Made by a program: the position numbers and the translations under genes
Shown: piece after piece, positions 10,515-36,769 of the stretch
Layout of the letters: each line of letters starts with the position of its first letter
Position numbering within the stretch: position 1 is the stretch's first letter
Assembly: GCA_037379885.1 (NCBI GenBank)
Contig: JARRJC010000016.1
Span: 1-39,388, forward strand
Direction of reading: 5' to 3'
Length of the DNA stretch: 39,388 nucleotides
Origin: Limibacillus sp.
GTDB taxonomy: Bacteria > Pseudomonadota > Alphaproteobacteria > Kiloniellales > CECT-8803
Notes under the pieces: generated by a model
Database searches by the model: none
Seen by the model: only the letters and a program-made list of their open reading frames with translations
Told to the model about the DNA's origin: nothing

Positions 10515-11099
10515 GTGACGGCCCCCCTTAGAATTCTGCTTTGCGCCTTCCTGCTCTTGGTCACGCCGCTGACCGCTGCCTCGGCGCAGGACGGCGACAC
10601 GGCGGCACTCTGGCGCGCGCTGAAAAGCGGCGAGGCCTTCGCCATGATGCGTCACGCCATCGCGCCGGGCACCGGCGACCCGGCCAACTTCACGCTGGGC
10701 GATTGCAGCACCCAGCGGAACCTTTCGGCCGAGGGCCGCGCGCAGGCTGAGGCGATCGGCAGGCACTTCCGGGAGAACGGCATTGAGACGGCGGCTGTCT
10801 ACTCCAGCGCCTGGTGCCGCTGTCAGGACACGGCCTCGCTTCTGGACCTGGGCGAGGTGACGACGCTGGCGCCGCTCAACTCCTTCTACCAGCGATCGGG
10901 CAGGGCCGAGCAGACGGCGGAGACCCGAAGCTGGCTTAGCGCCTACGAGGGTCCCTGGCCGTTGGTCTTGGTGACCCATCAAGTGAACATCTCGGCGTTG
11001 ACCGGCCAGTACGCCGCGTCGGGCGAGACCATCGTCGCCAAGATCGGACCCGAGGGCGAGGTGACCGTTCTCGGCGCCCTGAGCGCCCACCCCGAGTGA
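10515..11099 (+). CDS. Exported histidine phosphatase family protein
   Basis: The 194-residue product starts at GTG 10515 behind a strong AGAGGAGGAG ribosome-binding site. A signal peptide is evident (hydrophobic residues 5-20, cleavage probably after ASA). The histidine-phosphatase (phosphoglycerate mutase-like) fold is marked by MRHA (Arg46-His47, the phospho-accepting His) and a second His155 in VLVTHQVN. The family removes phosphate from diverse small molecules or proteins; the periplasmic location suggests an acid-phosphatase or envelope role, which is inference. The small size places it among the simple SixA/PhoE-like members. Its stop codon forms the start of a 17-bp tandem repeat. Confidence 0.82.
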   Translation: MTAPLRILLCAFLLLVTPLTAASAQDGDTAALWRALKSGEAFAMMRHAIAPGTGDPANFTLGDCSTQRNLSAEGRAQAEAIGRHFRENGIETAAVYSSAWCRCQDTASLLDLGEVTTLAPLNSFYQRSGRAEQTAETRSWLSAYEGPWPLVLVTHQVNISALTGQYAASGETIVAKIGPEGEVTVLGALSAHPE

Positions 11100-11130
11100 C
11101 CTGGATCCCGGACTGACCTGGATCCCGGAC
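11097..11130. repeat. 17-bp direct tandem repeat, two copies
   Basis: The unit TGACCTGGATCCCGGAC occurs at 11097-11113 and again at 11114-11130; a third partial copy (TGACCTG) follows. The first copy begins with the TGA stop codon of the histidine phosphatase gene. The motif CTGGATCCCGG resembles half of a dispersed palindromic repeat found in many alphaproteobacteria, so it may be a decayed repeat element. Confidence 0.8.
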
Positions 11131-11176
11131 TGACCTGAATCAATGCCGGTCCGGCGGGGGCCTTGCATGCTCCTCT

Positions 11177-22687: not shown

Positions 22688-24241
22688 TTATCCTCCCGTG
22701 GTCGAAAGTTGGATGTTGTCGGCCAAGGCCTCGGCCGCATCAAAGCTGGGGTTCAGGTTCACTGAGGCGCCGCCGTCGGTCAGGCTGTCTCCGTCGATCA
22801 CCGCGAGCGTGACCGGGCCGCCCTCTTCGCTGCCGCTCTCGACCTGCACCGCGATATCCCAACCCCGTCCGTCACGTTGCAGAAGGTAGGTCAGGCTGGT
22901 GCTGTCGTAGTCCGCGATGACCTCTGACAGGTCGAGCGTGCTGCCTCCCGCTTCGGGGGCTGCGATGTCGAATCCCGTGAGAACAAGCGGCTCTTCCCCA
23001 AGGGTCTGAAGCGCCGCGCCGACTTGCTCGTCCGAGGGGCCGTCCGCGTCGTCTTCGTTCTGGCCTGGCGGGGTGCCGCCGTTGCCGCTGCCCGGACCGC
23101 TGCCTTCGGTATTGCCGCCGCCATTACCGGAGTTCGGCGTATTGCCGTTTCCGTTGCCGGGGCCGCCGGGCTCGGCGGAAACGCTCTCTGACCCTTCGTC
23201 TTCGTCTTCGATCTGCCCAGGCGGCATACCGCCGTTGCCGCTGCCCGGACCGCTGCCGCCGGTGTTGCCGCCGCCGTTGCCTGGGTTGCCCTCGTTGCCG
23301 TTTCCGTTGCCGGGACCACTGCCCTCGACGACCTCACCCGGCTCCTCTTCACTGTCCCCGACTGGACCGACCTCACCGGGATCACTCTCGCCGGGACCAC
23401 TCTCTCCGGGGTCGCCCTCGCCGGGATCGCCCTCGCCGGGATCGCCCTCGCCGGGATCGCCGTCGCCGGGGTCGCCCTCTCCAGGGTCGCCCTCTCCTGG
23501 GCTACCCTCACCAGGGCTACCCTCACCGGGACCTTCCTCTTCCGGATTGGCGGCTTGAGGCGGCGGGGGCGTCTGCCCGCCTGAAAGGTCCGGGCTGTCG
23601 CCGTTCTGCGCCACGCCGCCGTCGGGGCTTCCACCAGCCGAAGACTCGGCGGGCGGATCGCTGGGAGAAGGATTGCCTGCGGGAGAAGCCTCCCCCGGCT
23701 CCGTTGAAGCGTTGACGCGCGGTTGGTCGGGGAGCGGGCTGCCACCCTCGCTTTCACCGGACAGGAAACCCAGCGTGGAGAGCCCCTCCAGGGCGGTCAG
23801 GCCGGGTGCTTCGAAATCGCCGCCGCTGCCCTGAGCCTCCTGATCCCCTTCGTCGGGGTCGGCTGCGCCCGCAGCGGGCTCGATCTGCAGGAGCTGCTCC
23901 AGCTCACGTGTGCTCAACTCCAGGAGGTCGGGCAACTCCGCCGGAGGCGCACCCTCTGCGCCGCCCGGCTCAAATCCTTGAGCAAGCTGCGCGTTGCCCG
24001 GCGCGCCCTGCGGCGGCGTCTGGCCGGCTTCTGCAAGCTGAAGGCCTGCGCCTTCGAAAACGATGGTCGCGCCGTCCGGGAAGCGCACCACCAGGTCGCC
24101 GTTTTCCACGGTCATTGTGGAGCTGCCGGCGTCAAAGGCGATGCGGACCGGCTGACCCGCCGGAACTTTCACGGTTTCCTCGGCGCCCGGGCGCTCTACA
24201 GCGACGACGCCCTTTGCCGCGTCCTGCACATTCAAGACCAT
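22688..24241 (-). CDS. Gly/Pro/Glu-rich repeat protein, possible secreted adhesin-like protein
   Basis: The 517-residue product has no signal peptide. Residues 1-65 form a compact beta-rich module (ERPGAEETVKVPAGQP, then GDLVVRFPDGATIVFEG) like the N-terminal modules of large RTX-type adhesins. Residues 95-305 are low-complexity and acidic, with a PGEGDPGEG array at 238-285. Residues 309-350 and 360-401 are two copies of a roughly 42-residue Gly/Asn-rich segment (GPGNGNGN...PPGQ). Residues 434-517 (LDLSEVI..., WDIAVQVESG) look like a folded C-terminal domain that may serve as a type I secretion signal. The resemblance to adhesin ends is from memory. It is the first gene of an operon with the PilZ protein; a CtrA-type site lies upstream. 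Confidence 0.72.
   Translation of the reverse strand: MVLNVQDAAKGVVAVERPGAEETVKVPAGQPVRIAFDAGSSTMTVENGDLVVRFPDGATIVFEGAGLQLAEAGQTPPQGAPGNAQLAQGFEPGGAEGAPPAELPDLLELSTRELEQLLQIEPAAGAADPDEGDQEAQGSGGDFEAPGLTALEGLSTLGFLSGESEGGSPLPDQPRVNASTEPGEASPAGNPSPSDPPAESSAGGSPDGGVAQNGDSPDLSGGQTPPPPQAANPEEEGPGEGSPGEGSPGEGDPGEGDPGDGDPGEGDPGEGDPGEGDPGESGPGESDPGEVGPVGDSEEEPGEVVEGSGPGNGNGNEGNPGNGGGNTGGSGPGSGNGGMPPGQIEDEDEGSESVSAEPGGPGNGNGNTPNSGNGGGNTEGSGPGSGNGGTPPGQNEDDADGPSDEQVGAALQTLGEEPLVLTGFDIAAPEAGGSTLDLSEVIADYDSTSLTYLLQRDGRGWDIAVQVESGSEEGGPVTLAVIDGDSLTDGGASVNLNPSFDAAEALADNIQLSTTGG
23039..23317 (-). repeat. Imperfect internal duplication in the repeat protein
   Basis: Codons for residues 309-350 (23192-23317) and 360-401 (23039-23164) encode near-identical Gly/Asn-rich segments ending in PPGQ plus an acidic patch. 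The duplication is visible in the DNA as well as the protein. Confidence 0.8.
23387..23530 (-). repeat. 15-bp coding minisatellite (PGEGD array)
   Basis: About nine copies of a 15-bp unit (plus strand CCGGGATCGCCCTCG and variants) encode tandem PGEGD/S pentapeptides at residues 238-285. The central copies are nearly identical, suggesting recent expansion and possible length variation between strains. Confidence 0.85.
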
Positions 24242-24444: not shown

Positions 24445-26265
24445 ATGTCCGGCAACTCGATCCTGAATCTCAGCCATCAACTGCGGCGCGCTCGGCGCAG
24501 CAGCTATTTGCTTCTGGCGCGCAACCGTTCTGCCTTGTCCAACCCGCATCTGAGGCTTTTCTTCTATTCGATCGCCATCGGTCTCGCTTCGGGCGCCGCC
24601 GCCGTGCTGTTCCGCCATGCCGTGGACCTGATCCAGTGGGCTTTTCTGTCCGACCGGGGCGAGAACATTCTGCTCTTCATTGCCGATGTGCCCTGGTGGC
24701 GCGTCTTGCTGGCGCCGGCGCTGGGCGGGTTGATGATCGGTCTTGCCGCCTACTACTTCCTTCCTGACCGTCGGCCGCAATCGGTCGCCCAGGTGATCGA
24801 GGTGGCCGCGCTGCGTGGCGGCAGGATGTCGCTGAAGGACGGGGCGAAGATCGCGCTGGTCAACGCGGCTTCGGTTGGCGTCGGCGGCTCCGTCGGTCGC
24901 GAAGGGCCGGTGGTTCATCTCGGCGCTTCCATTGGGGCCTGGGTCGCCAAACGCCTGCATCTGGGGCGCGCCATGAGCCGCACGCTCTTGGGCTGCGGCG
25001 TGGCGGCGGCGGTGGCGGCCTCCTTCAACGCGCCGATCGCCGGTGTCTTCTTCGCGCTGGAGGTGGTGGTCGGACACTATGCCCTCTCCGCCTTTGCGCC
25101 GGTGGTGGTGGCGGGCGTGCTGGGCACCATCGTCAGCCGCATGGTCTACGGCGACTTCCCCGCCTTCGTCCTGCCGCAGAGTTACGAGATCACCTCGTTC
25201 TTCGAGTTCCCGGCCTTCGCGCTCCTGGGCGTCATCAGCGCCATGGCGGCCATCCTCTTCATGCGCTCCATCATGACCGTCGAAGACACCTGGAGCCGTC
25301 TGCCGCAGGTCCCGCCCTGGCTGCGGCCGGCCATTGGCGGGCTGGGCGTCGGGGTGATCGCCGTTTTCTTCCCCCAGGTGCTGGGCGTCGGCTACGGGGC
25401 GACCGATCAGGCGCTTCAGGAACTGCTGCCGCTCTGGCTCCTGTTCGCGCTGATCCTCATGAAGACCCTGGCGACGGCCTTGTCGCTGGGCTCGGGCTTC
25501 GGCGGCGGGGTCTTCTCGCCCTCGCTCTTCCTGGGGGCCATGATCGGCGGGTCCTTCGGCGTGGTGGCGACCTCGGTGTTCCCGGCGCTCTCCTCGGGCC
25601 ACGGCGCCTACACCATCGTCGGCATGGGAGCGGTCGCAGGCGCAGTCTTGGGCGCGCCCATCTCCACCATGCTGATCATCTTCGAGATGACCTCGGACTA
25701 TGCGCTCACCATCGCGGTGATGATCGCAACGGCCGTCGCCTCGATCATCACCCAGCAGCTTTTCGGCCGTTCCTTCTTCCAGTGGCAGCTTGAGCGGCGC
25801 GGCATCACGCTGGGCGGCGGCCGCGAGGTCGGGCTTCTGCGCGCGCTGGAGGTCACCGGCTTCGCCGACAAGAAGGTCGAGAGCGTCTCTCCGGACACGC
25901 CGCTCGCACAGGTGCGCTCGCGCCTTTCCGCTGCGCCCTGGAGCCTGCTGGTGGTGAACGACGCCGAGGGCCGCCTCGAAGGCCTGATCGGCTTTCCCGA
26001 CCTGGGCGAACTGGCCTTCGACCGGGACCGCGACGGCGAACTGCGGGCCTCGGACGTGATGCACAAGGCGGGCTACTCCCTGGTCAGCAGCGACAACCTT
26101 CAGGCCGCCGTCCAGGCCTTCACCTCCTCTGGCGAGGTGCATCTGCCTGTGATCAACAACCGGGAGGAGCGCCGCTTCATCGGCATGGTCCATGAGCACG
26201 AGGTCATGGCCGCCTACCACAAGACCCTGGTCCAGGCCCGCAAGGAAGAACGCGGGGAAGTCTAG
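24445..26265 (+). CDS. CLC-family chloride channel/transporter with C-terminal CBS domains
   Basis: The 606-residue product has about ten hydrophobic helices of the CLC fold and the signature loops GSVGREGPVVHLG (GREGP at about 151-155, including the gating Glu), and GSGFGGGVFSPSLFLGA. After about residue 440 come two CBS domains (VSPDTPLAQVRSRLS..., ASDVMHKAGYSLVSSDNLQAAVQAF) that bind adenine nucleotides in this family. It conducts or exchanges chloride (or related anions) across the inner membrane. ATGs at 24442 and 24445 are both possible; an in-frame GTG at 24409 has no ribosome-binding site. Its TAG overlaps the TAG of the convergent gene in a CTAG palindrome. Confidence 0.92.
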   Translation: MSGNSILNLSHQLRRARRSSYLLLARNRSALSNPHLRLFFYSIAIGLASGAAAVLFRHAVDLIQWAFLSDRGENILLFIADVPWWRVLLAPALGGLMIGLAAYYFLPDRRPQSVAQVIEVAALRGGRMSLKDGAKIALVNAASVGVGGSVGREGPVVHLGASIGAWVAKRLHLGRAMSRTLLGCGVAAAVAASFNAPIAGVFFALEVVVGHYALSAFAPVVVAGVLGTIVSRMVYGDFPAFVLPQSYEITSFFEFPAFALLGVISAMAAILFMRSIMTVEDTWSRLPQVPPWLRPAIGGLGVGVIAVFFPQVLGVGYGATDQALQELLPLWLLFALILMKTLATALSLGSGFGGGVFSPSLFLGAMIGGSFGVVATSVFPALSSGHGAYTIVGMGAVAGAVLGAPISTMLIIFEMTSDYALTIAVMIATAVASIITQQLFGRSFFQWQLERRGITLGGGREVGLLRALEVTGFADKKVESVSPDTPLAQVRSRLSAAPWSLLVVNDAEGRLEGLIGFPDLGELAFDRDRDGELRASDVMHKAGYSLVSSDNLQAAVQAFTSSGEVHLPVINNREERRFIGMVHEHEVMAAYHKTLVQARKEERGEV

Positions 26266-29842: not shown

Positions 29843-30724
29843 ATGAGCGGGAACGGCTGGCGCGTTGACCTCTCCTTTCCAGCGGAGAAACTGGCGATCC
29901 TGGACGAGGCGCTGAGCGGCCTCGGCGGGGCCTTGGTGACCGGCGGCCCGGACCAGAGCGGCCTGGTTCCCGTCACCCTCTATCTGGAGAACGAGCCCGA
30001 GCGCCCCGCGCTGGTGGCCGCGCTTTCGCTGGCCGCGGCGGCGTCGGGTTGCGAAGCGCCCGACTACAAGGCCGAGCCGCTGCCACCCACCGACTGGGTG
30101 GCCGAAAGCCAGAAATCGCTGCCGCCGATCCGCGCGGGCCGGTTTTTCCTGCACGGCTCCCACACGAGCGAGCGGCCCTCGGGCGGGGCCATCCCGCTCT
30201 TGATCGACGCCAACCAGGCCTTCGGCACCGGGCGGCACGAGACCACGCGCGGCTGCCTTCTGGCCTTGCAGGACCTGCAGAGTTTCGGGGTCAGCTGGCG
30301 GGGCCGCGCGCTCGACATGGGCTGCGGCTCCGGCGTGCTGGCCATGGCCATGGCGGCGCTCTGGAAGAAGCCGGTCCTGGGGGTGGACAACGACCCGGCC
30401 TCGGTCCTGGTGGCGCGGGAAAATGCGCGGCTGAACGGGCTCGCGCCCTTGCTGCGTTACGAGTACGGCGAAGGCTACCGCAGCGCGCTGGTGCGTGCGG
30501 ACGCGCCCTACGACCTGATCGTCGCCAACATCCTGGCGGCCCCGCTCTGCGCCATGGCCGAGGACCTGAAGCGCAATCTGGCGCCGGGCGGGTTCGCCGT
30601 GCTGTCCGGCCTGCTCGCCAGCCAGGAGCGCATGGTGCGGCTGCGCCATCGCAACGCCGGTCTGATCCTGGCCGGACGCTACCCCTTGGCGGAATGGATG
30701 ACCTTGGTGCTCCAGCGCGCCTAG
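29843..30724 (+). CDS. prmA: Ribosomal protein L11 methyltransferase
   Basis: PrmA trimethylates ribosomal protein L11 with S-adenosylmethionine. The 293-residue product has the N-terminal substrate-recognition domain (about 1-100), an AFGTGRHETTRGCL motif linking to the SAM-binding Rossmann domain (LDMGCGSGVLAMAMA near 156-170) and the catalytic region DLIVANILAAPL. These are diagnostic for PrmA. It follows uvrD by 4 bp with the ATG embedded in CCGGATGAGC. Its TAG lies in the first unit of a tandem repeat shared with the convergent DUF2474 gene. Confidence 0.93.
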   Translation: MSGNGWRVDLSFPAEKLAILDEALSGLGGALVTGGPDQSGLVPVTLYLENEPERPALVAALSLAAAASGCEAPDYKAEPLPPTDWVAESQKSLPPIRAGRFFLHGSHTSERPSGGAIPLLIDANQAFGTGRHETTRGCLLALQDLQSFGVSWRGRALDMGCGSGVLAMAMAALWKKPVLGVDNDPASVLVARENARLNGLAPLLRYEYGEGYRSALVRADAPYDLIVANILAAPLCAMAEDLKRNLAPGGFAVLSGLLASQERMVRLRHRNAGLILAGRYPLAEWMTLVLQRA

Positions 30725-30781
30725 GGCGCGAGGGCGCTCCAAACGCGCCCAGAGCGCGAGGGCGCTCCAACGCGCCTAGGG
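30709..30781. repeat. Three-copy 27/28-bp tandem repeat covering two convergent stop codons
   Basis: Units start at GCTCCA: 30709-30735, 30736-30763 and a partial unit from 30764. Unit 1 contains the prmA stop (CTAG at 30721-30724), unit 3 the stop of the DUF2474 gene (CTAG at 30776-30779), and unit 2 has CCAG instead. Collapsing the repeat would put both stops on one CTAG. Confidence 0.85.
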
Positions 30782-30895
30782 GGCCAGCACCGCCCGGATC
30801 AGCAGCCCGACCAGCGTCACCGCCAGCACCCCGCCCAGCCAGAGCAGGACGAACCAGCCGAGCCGTCTGGAGAGCCGAGGCTTGTCCTCAGCCAT
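30776..30895 (-). CDS. DUF2474 family small membrane protein (CydX-like)
   Basis: The 39-residue product has a basic N-terminus (MAEDKPRLSRRLGW) and one membrane helix (about residues 14-34), matching the DUF2474 family that follows cydB in many proteobacteria. It is a probable small accessory subunit of the bd-type quinol oxidase, analogous to CydX/CydS, which stabilise the haem site (function by analogy). The ATG overlaps the cydB stop (TGATG), so translation is coupled. Confidence 0.82.
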   Translation of the reverse strand: MAEDKPRLSRRLGWFVLLWLGGVLAVTLVGLLIRAVLAP

Positions 30896-31899
30896 CAGTG
30901 ATAGCCTTCGTCCGGGTCCACCTTGCCGCGGAAGATCCAGTAGGCGTAGGCCGTGTAGCAGAGGATGATCGGGATCAGGAAGAGAGCGCCGACCAGTAGG
31001 AACCCCAGACTCTTGTCCGGCGCCGCCGCCTGCCAGATGGTGATCGAAGGCGGCACCATGTAGGGGTAGAAGGAGATGCCGATCCCCGCGTAGCAGAGCA
31101 GGAAGACGCCCTGCGCGGAGAGGAAGGGCAGCCAGTCGTGATGCCGCTTCAGGCCCCACCAGAAACCCAGGCAGCAGAGCCCCACCAGCAGCGGCACGAT
31201 GATCGAGAAGGCCGCCGTCGGCCAGGCGAACCAGCGCGCCACATAGGCGGAGTTCTGGAACGGGGTGGCGAGGGAAACCGCGCCGATCAGAAGCAGCGTC
31301 ACGACGCCGCTGCGCCAGGCGTAGTCGCGCGCCCGCGCGGCCAGCAGCCCCTCGGTCTTCATGACCAGCCAACTGGCGCCCAGAAGCGCGTAGCCGATCA
31401 CCAGCGCGACGCCCGTCACGATGGAGAAGGGCGTCAGCCAGTCCCACCAGCCGCCGGCGTAGGCGCGGTTCTCCACCTCGATCCCCTGGACCAGCGCGCC
31501 CAGCGCGATCCCTTGCGCGAAGGCGGCGATCAGCGAGCCGCCGAAGAATCCCACGTCCCAGAGGATGCGGCTGCGCTGGGCGCGCGCCCGAAACTCGAAG
31601 GAGACGCCCCGGAAGATCAGCCCCAGCAGCATGGCGATGATCGGGGCGTAGAGCGCCGGGAGCACCGTGGCGTAGGCCAGCGGGAAGACCGCGAAGAGTC
31701 CGCCGCCGCCCAGCACCAGCCAGGTCTCGTTGCCGTCCCAGACCGGGGCGACGGAGTTCATGGCGAGGTCGCGCTCGCTGTCGTCGCCCAGGAAGGGGAA
31801 GAGGATGCCGACCCCCAGATCGAAGCCGTCCAGCACGACATAGGCACAGACGGCAAAGGCGATGAGGCCGGCCCAGATGAATGCGAGGTCGAGTTCCAT
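30895..31899 (-). CDS. cydB: Cytochrome bd-type quinol oxidase subunit II
   Basis: CydB is the structural partner of CydA in the bd-family terminal oxidase of the inner membrane. The 334-residue, multi-helix product starts with the family motif (FIWAGLIAFAVCAYVVLDGFDLGVG), followed by PVWDGNETWLVLGGGGLFAVFPLAYA and GLIFRGVSFEFR, and ends in LIPIILCYTAYAYWIFRGKV. A strong GGGGGAGGA ribosome-binding site precedes the ATG, 13 bp after the cydA stop. Confidence 0.95.
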   Translation of the reverse strand: MELDLAFIWAGLIAFAVCAYVVLDGFDLGVGILFPFLGDDSERDLAMNSVAPVWDGNETWLVLGGGGLFAVFPLAYATVLPALYAPIIAMLLGLIFRGVSFEFRARAQRSRILWDVGFFGGSLIAAFAQGIALGALVQGIEVENRAYAGGWWDWLTPFSIVTGVALVIGYALLGASWLVMKTEGLLAARARDYAWRSGVVTLLLIGAVSLATPFQNSAYVARWFAWPTAAFSIIVPLLVGLCCLGFWWGLKRHHDWLPFLSAQGVFLLCYAGIGISFYPYMVPPSITIWQAAAPDKSLGFLLVGALFLIPIILCYTAYAYWIFRGKVDPDEGYH

Positions 31900-31912: not shown

Positions 31913-33319
31913 TTACTCGGCCGGTGTGATGGCGCGCAGGCGCCGCAGGATGGGGCCGGGCATCAGGCCCGCCGAGCGGCTGGGGCCCTGCGGCTCGTCG
32001 ATGCCCGCCTCCGGGCTGCTCGCCATCAGCTTCAGGCAGTAGTAGGTGCCCATGCCGAAGACAGCGAAGTAGACCACCACGAAGATCATCAGAGAGGTGC
32101 CGACGGCCGCCGCCTCCAGCGGCGAGTGGGACTCCGCCGTCCTCAAGAGGCCCTGCACGGTCCAGGGTTGGCGCCCCACCTCCGTCGTGATCCAGCCCGC
32201 CAGGACGGCGGCGAAGCCCGCGGGCGAAGCCAGGACCGCCGCGCGGTGCAGCCAGCGCGCCTCGAACAGCTTGCCGCGCAGTCTCTGAAGACCGCTCCAA
32301 AGACCGATGAAGACCATCAGGAAGCCCAGTCCCACCATGATGCGGAAGGACCAGAAGACGATCTCCGCCGGGGGTCGGTCCTCCTTGGCGAAGGCTTTCA
32401 GGCCCTGGACCTCGCCGTTCCAGTCGTGGGTCAGGATCATGGAGCCGAGCTTGGGCACCTCCAGGGCGAAGCGGACTTCCTCGGCCTCGTCGTCGGGGAT
32501 CCCGAAGAGGATCAGCGGCGCGCCCCGCTTGGTTTCGTAGTGGCCTTCCATGGCGGCAACCTTGGCCGGCTGATGCTCCAGCGTGTTGAGTCCGTGGAGA
32601 TCCCCGGCCGCGATCTGCAGCGGCGCCACCAGCAGCGCCATCCACATGGCCATGGAGAACATGATGCGCGCACCCCTGTCGCGGGGTTCCTTCAAGAGGT
32701 GCCAGGCACCCACGCCGCCCACCACGAAGGCCGTGGTCAGGTAGGCCGCCAGGACCATGTGAACCAGCCGGTAGGGGAAGGAGGGGTTGAAGATGACGGC
32801 CCACCAGTCCTCCGGCACGAACTGCCCGACCTCGTTCATGCCGTATCCCGCTGGCGTGTGCATCCAGGAGTTGACCGAGAGGATCCAGAAGGCCGAGAAG
32901 AGGGTGCCGATCGCGACCATGGCGGTGGCGAAGAAGTGCAGCTTGGGCCCGACCCGGTTGCGCCCGAAGAGCATCACGCCGAGGAATCCGGCCTCCAGGA
33001 AGAAGGCCGAGAGCACCTCGTAGCCCATCAAGGGCCCCAGCACCGGCCCGGTCTTGTCCGAGAAGACCGACCAGTTGGTGCCGAACTGGTAGCTCATGAC
33101 GATGCCGGAGACCACGCCCATGCCGAAGACCACGGCGAAGATGGTCTTCCAGTAGTCGAAGACCTTCAGATAGCTGTCGTCCCGCCGGATCAACCAGAGC
33201 CCCTCCAGAACCGCCAGGTAGCTGGCGAGCCCGATGGAGAAGGCCGGGAAGATGATGTGGGCGGAAACCGTGAAGGCGAACTGGAGCCGGGCCAGTTCCA
33301 GCGCGGTCGGGAATTCCAT
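31913..33319 (-). CDS. cydA: Cytochrome bd-type (CIO-like) quinol oxidase subunit I
   Basis: CydA carries haems b558, b595 and d and oxidises quinol while reducing oxygen to water. From the ATG at 33319 the product is 468 aa. It has RLQFAFTVSAHIIFPAF with the N-terminal haem-ligand His, PYRLVHMVLAAY with another, and the GRQPW motif near the end. The quinol-binding loop after GDLHGLNTLEHQPAK is short, as in cyanide-insensitive CioA rather than E. coli CydA. A GTG four codons upstream (33331) is an alternative start. The operon is cydA-cydB-DUF2474; the cydDC assembly exporter is not in the window. A 9-bp inverted repeat lies just upstream. Confidence 0.94.
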   Translation of the reverse strand: MEFPTALELARLQFAFTVSAHIIFPAFSIGLASYLAVLEGLWLIRRDDSYLKVFDYWKTIFAVVFGMGVVSGIVMSYQFGTNWSVFSDKTGPVLGPLMGYEVLSAFFLEAGFLGVMLFGRNRVGPKLHFFATAMVAIGTLFSAFWILSVNSWMHTPAGYGMNEVGQFVPEDWWAVIFNPSFPYRLVHMVLAAYLTTAFVVGGVGAWHLLKEPRDRGARIMFSMAMWMALLVAPLQIAAGDLHGLNTLEHQPAKVAAMEGHYETKRGAPLILFGIPDDEAEEVRFALEVPKLGSMILTHDWNGEVQGLKAFAKEDRPPAEIVFWSFRIMVGLGFLMVFIGLWSGLQRLRGKLFEARWLHRAAVLASPAGFAAVLAGWITTEVGRQPWTVQGLLRTAESHSPLEAAAVGTSLMIFVVVYFAVFGMGTYYCLKLMASSPEAGIDEPQGPSRSAGLMPGPILRRLRAITPAE

Positions 33320-33335
33320 GGGGCAGGTCACTCCG

Positions 33336-34159: not shown

Positions 34160-35062
34160 TTGGACCGTCTTCAGGGCATCGAGGTCTTCGTGCGGGTCGC
34201 GGAGCTTGGCGGCTTCGCCAAGGCGGCGCGCGACCTCGGCCTGTCGCCGCCCGCCGCCACGCGGGCGGTCTCGGCCCTGGAGGAGCGGCTGGGTGCGCGT
34301 CTTCTGGTGCGCACCACCCGTTCGGTTCGCGTGACCGAGAGCGGCGCGCGTTTCCTCGCCGACGCCAAGCGCCTGCTCGTGGAGCTTCAGGAGGCCGAGG
34401 AGTCAGCGGCGGGCGATCACGCGGAGCCGCGCGGCGAGCTTCGCATCACCGCCCCCCTGCTGTTCGGACGCCTGCATGTGGCCCCGGTTCTGGCCGCCTT
34501 CCTGGACCGCTATCCCCTGGTGAGCGCGCAGGCGCTTTTCCTCGACCGCAGCGTCAGCTTGATGGAGGAGGGCCTGGACCTGGCGGTCCGCATCGGGCCC
34601 CTGCCGGATTCTTCGCTGATCGCGATCAAGGTCGGGGAGGTGCGCCCCACGGTCTTCGCCAGTCCCGCCTATCTGGCCCGCGCGGGAACCCCGCAGCGGC
34701 CCTCCGACCTCAGCGGACACCGCCTGATCCATGCGAACTCCGTCAGCGCTCTTCCCGAGTGGCGCTTTCTCGAAGCCGGGTCCGAACGGCGCTTCCGGTT
34801 CGAGCCGCGCTTGACCCTGAACGCCAACGAGGCCGTGCGCGAGCTGGCCGAGAGCGGCTGGGGCGTTGCGCGCCTGCTTTCCTATCAGGTTGCCGAGGCG
34901 CTCAGCGCCGGCCGGTTGGTGAGGCTCCTTGAGGACTACGAACCCGCGCCGCTGCCGGTCCATCTGCTGCACCCCGAAGGACGGCGCACCTCGGCAAAGC
35001 TGCGCGCCTTCGTCGACTTCGCGGCCCTGCGCTTGGGCGAGCGCCTGAGAGCGCTGCCCTAG
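34160..35062 (+). CDS. LysR-family transcriptional regulator
   Basis: The 300-residue product has an N-terminal winged helix-turn-helix (residues 1-60; LGGFAKAARDLGLSPPAATRAVSALEERLGARLLVRTTRSVRVTESG spread over 15-62) and a periplasmic-binding-like effector domain. The group resembles the aromatic/quinone-responsive CrgA-type regulators. The start is taken as TTG at 34160, 9 nt after AAAGGA; no ATG is available in the same frame near the domain start. It probably regulates the divergent PPOX gene and itself. Its TAG overlaps the TAG of the FkbM gene in a CTAG palindrome. Confidence 0.9.
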   Translation: MDRLQGIEVFVRVAELGGFAKAARDLGLSPPAATRAVSALEERLGARLLVRTTRSVRVTESGARFLADAKRLLVELQEAEESAAGDHAEPRGELRITAPLLFGRLHVAPVLAAFLDRYPLVSAQALFLDRSVSLMEEGLDLAVRIGPLPDSSLIAIKVGEVRPTVFASPAYLARAGTPQRPSDLSGHRLIHANSVSALPEWRFLEAGSERRFRFEPRLTLNANEAVRELAESGWGVARLLSYQVAEALSAGRLVRLLEDYEPAPLPVHLLHPEGRRTSAKLRAFVDFAALRLGERLRALP

Positions 35063-36106: not shown

Positions 36107-36769
36107 ATGTCCTCTTCACACATTGGCCTCACCGAGGCGCTTTCGCGCTATCTGGACGAAAAGGGCCTGCGCGAAAGCGATGTCCTTCGCCGCCTGCGGG
36201 AGGAAACCGCCGGCATGGAGTATGCCCGGATGCAGATCACGCCCGGGCAGGGGGCGCTCATGGCCATGCTGGTGAAGCTGACCGGGGCGAAGCTCTGCGT
36301 CGAGGTCGGCACCTTCACCGGTTACAGCGCCCTTGCCGTCGCCGCCGCACTGCCCGAAGACGGGCGCCTCATCTGCTGCGACGTCAGCAAGGAGTGGACC
36401 GACGTGGGCCGGCGCTATTGGGAAGAGGCGGGGCTGTCGGACCGGATCGATCTGCGCATCGCCCCGGCGACCGAGACGCTGGACGCGCTTTCAGGGGAGG
36501 GGCTGGCCGGTCAGGTGGACTTCGCCTTCGTGGACGCCGACAAGACCAACTATGGCCGCTATTACGAGCAGCTCCTGGGGCTGCTGCGCCCCGGCGGCCT
36601 GATCGCCGTCGACAACGTGCTCTGGAGCGGCTCCGTCATTGACCCCGAGGATCAGAGCGAGGACACCAAGGCGATCCGCGCGCTCAACGACGCCATCGCC
36701 AAGGACGAGCGCGTGGACCATGTCCTGCTGCCGGTCGGCGACGGCCTGACCCTGGCGAGGAAGCGCTAG
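36107..36769 (+). CDS. Class I SAM-dependent O-methyltransferase (CCoAOMT type)
   Basis: The 220-residue product matches the cation-dependent caffeoyl-CoA/catechol O-methyltransferase family: SAM motif VEVGTFTGYSALAVAAALP (about 65-83), metal ligands Asp143 and Asp145 in FVDADKTNY and Asp169-Asn170 in AVDNVLWSG. It transfers methyl to a catechol-like hydroxyl; the natural substrate is unknown. The ATG at 36107 follows CGGGAG at a somewhat long spacing; the frame is open further upstream but without family sequence. Its TAG overlaps the stop of the convergent hydrolase gene in CTAG. Confidence 0.9.
   Translation: MSSSHIGLTEALSRYLDEKGLRESDVLRRLREETAGMEYARMQITPGQGALMAMLVKLTGAKLCVEVGTFTGYSALAVAAALPEDGRLICCDVSKEWTDVGRRYWEEAGLSDRIDLRIAPATETLDALSGEGLAGQVDFAFVDADKTNYGRYYEQLLGLLRPGGLIAVDNVLWSGSVIDPEDQSEDTKAIRALNDAIAKDERVDHVLLPVGDGLTLARKR

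Follow-up and report, generated by a model that had tools for sequence, protein, structure and literature searches.

Tandem repeat joining the stop codons of convergent prmA and DUF2474 genes in Limibacillus sp. points to a probable duplication across a shared CTAG

In the window analysed here, which is the whole 39,388-nucleotide stretch of Limibacillus sp. contig JARRJC010000016.1, the ribosomal protein L11 methyltransferase gene prmA (29843–30724, plus strand; Pfam PrmA) converges on a cytochrome bd oxidase (cyd) operon, which runs on the minus strand through cydA (subunit I, 31913–33331) and cydB (subunit II, 30895–31899) and ends with a gene for a 39-residue small membrane protein (30776–30895), assigned to DUF2474 by a Pfam match barely over threshold (26.7 bits against a cut-off of 26.6). 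Across the two gene ends lies a tandem array, read on the plus strand, with copies of 27 bp (30709–30735) and 28 bp (30736–30763) and a third, partial copy of 18 bp (30764–30781). The first 12–13 bp of copy 1 are the last sense codons of prmA, whose product ends in ...TLVLQRA and whose TAG stop lies within a first, unstranded CTAG (30721–30724); in copy 2 the stop position reads CCAG (30749–30752); and the DUF2474 gene ends inside copy 3, as ...VLAP, on a second unstranded CTAG (30776–30779). These positions had been given correctly to the base in an initial annotation of the sequence. The arrangement, with prmA stopping on the first copy of the tetramer and the DUF2474 gene on the last, is that of an expanded shared stop.

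The array is not a product of chance. Tandem Repeats Finder described it with a period of 28, 2.7 copies, 85% matches and a score of 116, against a top score of 78 for arrays of period 15 or more when a 473.6-kb sample was Markov-shuffled 10 times. Its GC-rich, palindromic core, found in a draft assembly of 128 contigs, could recall a dispersed, REP-like repeat family or an assembly artefact, but whereas REP and BIME elements have many genomic copies, this unit has no second genomic copy at up to three mismatches, and the array had no match better than E 0.1. The copies also differ from each other by substitutions and an indel, unlike a fresh mis-assembly, and the five analogous arrays described below have other units, so that we give either of these explanations hardly any credence.

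The two stops now lie 55 bp apart and come together on a single CTAG only once two units are removed. The initial annotation had put this as a collapse to one unit; the tetramers do coincide after the removal, but what remains is really 0.7 of a unit, whose missing 11 bp must correspond to the old end of the DUF2474 gene. On the prmA side the unit matches the gene end well, over 12–13 bp, whereas on the DUF2474 side it matches the real gene end weakly, at 7/11 positions, a score equalled or bettered by 10/169 other gene ends and by 3/48 ends on CTAG. The objection that 11 bp of the unit would have no source in an ancestor with a shared stop is softened by this partial match, not removed. This asymmetry speaks for the main rival to duplication across a shared stop, namely that the 3′ end of prmA, with its stop, was duplicated into a rearrangement junction and that the last copy later came to provide the stop of the DUF2474 gene, the CTAG never having been shared. 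Against such a one-sided origin, the minus-strand reading of unit 1, A-L-A-P-stop, resembles the V-L-A-P-stop of the DUF2474 gene, and the position of the partner's stop on the last copy would demand a second event.

A further possibility is that selection has kept the array as a bidirectional transcription terminator or as some other RNA or DNA structure. The plus-strand RNA folds better than 199/200 shuffles (z −2.8), and several relatives carry an A/T-flanked hairpin 3′ of prmA that is absent at the prmA/DUF2474 junction. However, the minus-strand fold is modest (z −1.1), four other arrays of the kind described below fold normally (z between −1.6 and +0.9), and the units of those arrays have no evident common sequence beyond the stop. 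An intrinsic terminator is a GC hairpin followed by a T-run, and there is no T-run on either side of the array; nor does the array coincide with any of the eight terminator-like sites between 24000 and 39388, a region where 7.6 are expected by chance. The suggestion of a bidirectional terminator, raised with the initial annotation, is accordingly not supported, and beyond the good plus-strand fold we found no support for a terminator or any other selected role, making this a very unlikely explanation. As a practical caution, repeats between convergent genes should not be taken as terminators by default.

The tetramer itself is scarce in the window, with 18 occurrences between 1 and 39388 against 59 expected. 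Three other convergent pairs share a CTAG stop, as the initial annotation had also recognised: a chloride channel and an AstE/AspA gene (26262–26265), a LysR gene and an FkbM methyltransferase gene (35059–35062), and an O-methyltransferase and an alpha-beta hydrolase gene (36766–36769), all three tetramers again unstranded. In 1.24 Mb of the source genome, 31/170 convergent pairs overlap by exactly 4 bp, 20 of them on CTAG, which makes a shared CTAG the commonest exact overlap of convergent genes in the part examined. For comparison, 200-kb samples of two relatives gave 1/26 (the sister genus, G001) and 4/33 (G044) convergent pairs overlapping by 4 bp, with CTAG in no case; in another two 20-kb pieces of G001 there was one CTAG overlap among four pairs and one TTAA overlap in a single pair. 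The source genome therefore looks rich in the CTAG overlaps that would be the starting state for an array. In G001 the chloride channel and AstE/AspA genes do not share a CTAG but stop 7 bp apart, so the overlaps themselves change between genera.

Some further features of the window are recorded here in their own right. Ten of its 18 CTAG tetramers coincide with ORF stops from the mechanical ORF list or with the stops of the prmA/DUF2474 array. At 11097–11141, a 17-bp array (TGACCTGGATCCCGGAC, 2.6 copies) starts precisely at the TGA with which a predicted ORF (10515–11099, plus strand) ends, and the period of the array puts the repeated TGA in all three frames. At 23364–23524, a 15-bp repeat (CCTCGCCGGGATCGC, eight copies) lies within the ORF 22688–24241 on the minus strand.

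Arrays of the same anatomy recur at other gene pairs. A pattern search of the whole genome for three CTAG at short range returned eight places, of which five are tandem arrays with a CTAG per unit, while the clusters on C46, C49 and C97 were set aside as non-repeat. Three of the five arrays lie between convergent genes, the first CTAG being the stop of the plus-strand gene and the last that of the minus-strand gene. Besides prmA/DUF2474, such two-sided arrays occur in the source genome at C2:110594 (23-bp unit; transglycosylase/EamA), C4:93737 (15-bp unit; NlpC-P60 and a gene of no Pfam family) and C12:34195 (14-bp unit; HAD/DUF1761), and in relatives on G042 C48 (14-bp unit, seven CTAG; DUF2189/AAA_33) and G035 C6 (three CTAG; DHO_dh/ArsC). 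The genes of these six pairs belong to different families, with a Pfam match for 11/12, and the pattern therefore belongs to the junction and not to the genes.

Altogether we listed 21 CTAG arrays in 13 genomes, a collection that is no census and whose counts are to be read as "at least": six are two-sided, nine have their outermost CTAG as the stop of a single gene (one of these, in G024, on weak coding evidence) and six on no called stop, among them one in G027 that touches no gene stop. Duplication of stops therefore also occurs without a shared stop, and the finding that one-stop arrays are no rarer than two-sided ones, with nine against six of the 21 listed, again speaks for a one-sided origin. 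Between convergent genes the balance is reversed, since in six of the seven arrays listed there the outer CTAGs serve as the stops of both genes, and in one, on G035 C101, of only one gene. Three of the arrays may be described individually. A 14-bp CTAG array at G000:C2:64505-64557 (L297:2506-2558) is found where a 651-codon ORF of no Pfam family ends on the minus strand, and at the far side of the array no called gene has its stop; a CTAG-bearing array at G000:C2:38523-38581 (L177) touches no gene stop and is an exception to the pattern; and a five-CTAG array with a 15-bp unit in G033 (L290:1799-1873) begins at the stop codon of a gene whose product has PCRF and RF-1 release factor domains.

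At two of the pairs, orthologous junctions in relatives are compact and free of arrays. The C4 pair, which has a gap of +26 and three CTAG in the source genome, has a gap of −8 (an 8-bp overlap) and no array in the sister genus G001, where the two proteins are 59% and 62% identical and the partner stops on the corresponding CTAG. In five more distant relatives the gaps of this pair are 5, 16, 31, 23 and 190 bp, and neither gene stops on CTAG; in one further relative (L309) the partner gene lies about 0.9 kb away. For the G042 pair the gap is +80, with seven CTAG, against +6 and no array in the congener G039, where the partner again stops on CTAG; in the more distant G015 the gap is 60 bp. Neither of the array-free junctions in G001 and G039 is a 4-bp CTAG overlap. 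The C4 and G042 pairs display the transitions proposed with the initial annotation, at other arrays and not at prmA/DUF2474 itself.

We then considered a duplication model in which the end bases of gene A, the stop tetramer and the end bases of gene B together make up one period. Both the C4 and the C12 unit follow it: the first, of 15 bp, consists of CTAG and 11 bp from the coding end of the partner, a composition that argues against a one-sided origin, and the second, of 14 bp, consists of about 10 bp from the end of gene A and CTAG. The model was tested, ungapped and without indels, on 99 non-overlapping convergent pairs with gaps of 4–120 bp, with flanks swapped between pairs as the control. 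At p≤0.05, 7/11 pairs whose two stops lie on the same tetramer fitted, as against 4/88 of the others (Fisher p 6e-6), the latter being about chance level. Without the prmA/DUF2474 pair and C12, which were known beforehand, 5/9 fitted (p 2e-4), and without C4 as well, 4/8 (p 1e-3). One of the fitting pairs is on CTAA, not CTAG; 4/11 same-tetramer pairs do not fit, and a twelfth (C8, both stops CTAG), which at a gap of 168 lies outside the gap limit, has no array. The best ungapped fit of the prmA/DUF2474 pair was 32/55 (flank-swap p 0.003), the 27/28 irregularity of its units weakening a test of this form. The underlying sample of 1.24 Mb, about 40% of the source genome, includes a 3-kb C12 piece chosen for its array and a part of C4 that was added with its array already known. 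Gene calls came from a home-made codon-score caller, and the 39-residue DUF2474 gene, absent from its output, was added by hand.

Tandem Repeats Finder arrays span both stops in 7/119 non-overlapping pairs with gaps of up to 200 bp, five of them with the same tetramer at both ends and two (C3 and C10) with different stops. Among the 174 tandem arrays of the sample, 119 are coding and 29 purely intergenic; two stops are covered five times, one stop 18 times and a start three times, giving 23/174 arrays on stops against 3/174 on starts, which the caller places less surely than stops. This bias fits a tolerance of duplications at gene ends and is no proof of a raised duplication rate.

The genomic context of the array is unusual. 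The closest prmA genes among named genomes are from Kiloniellaceae, at up to 58% identity, a comparison from which the source genome and those near it may have been left out. In G001, the sole other genome of the family among those compared, the order of chloride channel, AstE/AspA, UvrD helicase and prmA genes is conserved on one contig, with cydB-cydA on another. At 110 further loci with a prmA match, cydB was never found nearby (flanks of 1.5–4 kb where the contig allows, some genomes being counted twice), and the five loci with both genes are all from the source genome. Conversely, cydB matches at 1e-50 occur in 33/61 genomes of the order, the source genome included, and of the 32 other cydB genomes, the 29 whose cydB flanks were read have no prmA there, some of the flanks being ended by the contig. 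The gene 3′ of prmA in G001 is an M24 peptidase, present in 78/115 downstream stretches (a count that includes own copies, duplicate genomes and stretches of short length). In the source genome the M24 peptidase is on contig 8, preceded by a DUF1127 gene that matches the one beside prmA in G001. The segment G000:C8:109805-110185 (L155:9806-10186), where the M24 peptidase gene is accompanied by a DUF1127 gene and by a hairpin with A/T flanks, is a remnant of the old prmA neighbourhood on contig 8. A 76-residue gene of no Pfam family beside the DUF2474 gene in G001 was tried as a marker of the second end of the rearrangement and was of no help, its match elsewhere in the source genome being at 33%.

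Among the genomes examined, the prmA/cyd adjacency was found in the source genome only, and an ancestor with a single CTAG was not seen. With prmA and cyd adjacent here only and the usual neighbours of prmA on another contig, the array therefore sits on a lineage-specific rearrangement joint, and since no relative has the pair, a comparison of sister species is silent for or against a shared CTAG at this junction. The lineage-specific joint also accords with the one-sided origin set out above, which, with the evidence on both sides, we regard as rather unlikely while still the foremost competitor.

We consider it likely that the spacer between prmA and the DUF2474 gene arose by tandem duplication of a segment across their shared stop, with no effect on either protein. 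A rearrangement would have brought the cyd operon next to prmA, leaving the two genes to end on one shared CTAG. A short segment across this CTAG would then have been duplicated head to tail, twice or more, by slippage or a like event, with prmA still stopping at the first CTAG met and the DUF2474 gene, coming from the other side, at the last. Because both reading frames end where they did, the duplication would not have to be purged by selection, and the middle copies would be free to decay, as in the change of CTAG to CCAG, and to become new intergenic spacer. Slippage is probably the likeliest source of such short tandem units, recombination or end joining at the rearrangement being alternatives. 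The expansion of an ancestral overlap by duplication had already been proposed with the initial annotation; it now draws on five other pairs of the same anatomy, array-free orthologs at two of them and the 99-pair test, and not on direct evidence at prmA/DUF2474, where the former single CTAG is our reconstruction. More generally, and tentatively, shared stop tetramers of convergent genes may be privileged sites for the survival of tandem duplications, since both proteins stay intact. In GC-rich bacteria with many CTAG overlaps, such duplications could regularly turn an overlap into a spacer, one copy at a time, a change that could be undone as long as the copies stay alike but would be locked in by their decay.

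The separation of overlapping genes is little studied, and duplication across a shared stop would be a route of a single step, neutral for the proteins, with a scar that can still be read; unit counts from strains and sister species could thus give the direction and rate of the change. Studies of the gain and loss of gene overlaps (PMC4161906, PMC3843671) likewise concern the passage between overlapping and separated neighbours; as of 2014, published studies were described as having treated the creation and not the loss of overlaps (PMC4161906), and a duplication route of overlap loss is absent from the material available on these two papers. Nor did we find a description of the duplication of shared stops in the open literature, outside which most subscription journals lie. 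Convergent genes overlapping by 4 bp on CTAG, TTAA, CTAA or TTAG are known (PMC2174442), and the 20/170 convergent pairs that overlap on CTAG here are of this kind, two genes on one tetramer; at the arrays, by contrast, the tetramer is multiplied and the genes use its first and last copies. As in the bacterial minisatellites or VNTRs and small variable segments reported in the accessible text of PMC2884548, the units are short, head to tail and few, and lie outside genes or at their edge, but the arrays described here are defined by position, with a unit that spans the stops of two convergent genes. Convergent CTAG overlaps and minisatellites are each known, then, and their combination appears undescribed in the open literature searched; its presence at several junctions of the source genome and its relatives suggests a simple way to move touching genes apart. 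The TAACTGA direct repeats of marine Beggiatoaceae, as far as the available part of PMC4679880 describes them, are also tandem units with stop codons that sometimes overlap the stop of the upstream gene. They are, however, one heptamer at many loci, mostly intergenic and pointing to the start codon, whereas each array here has a unit of its own, and at some junctions this unit matches the coding end next to it.
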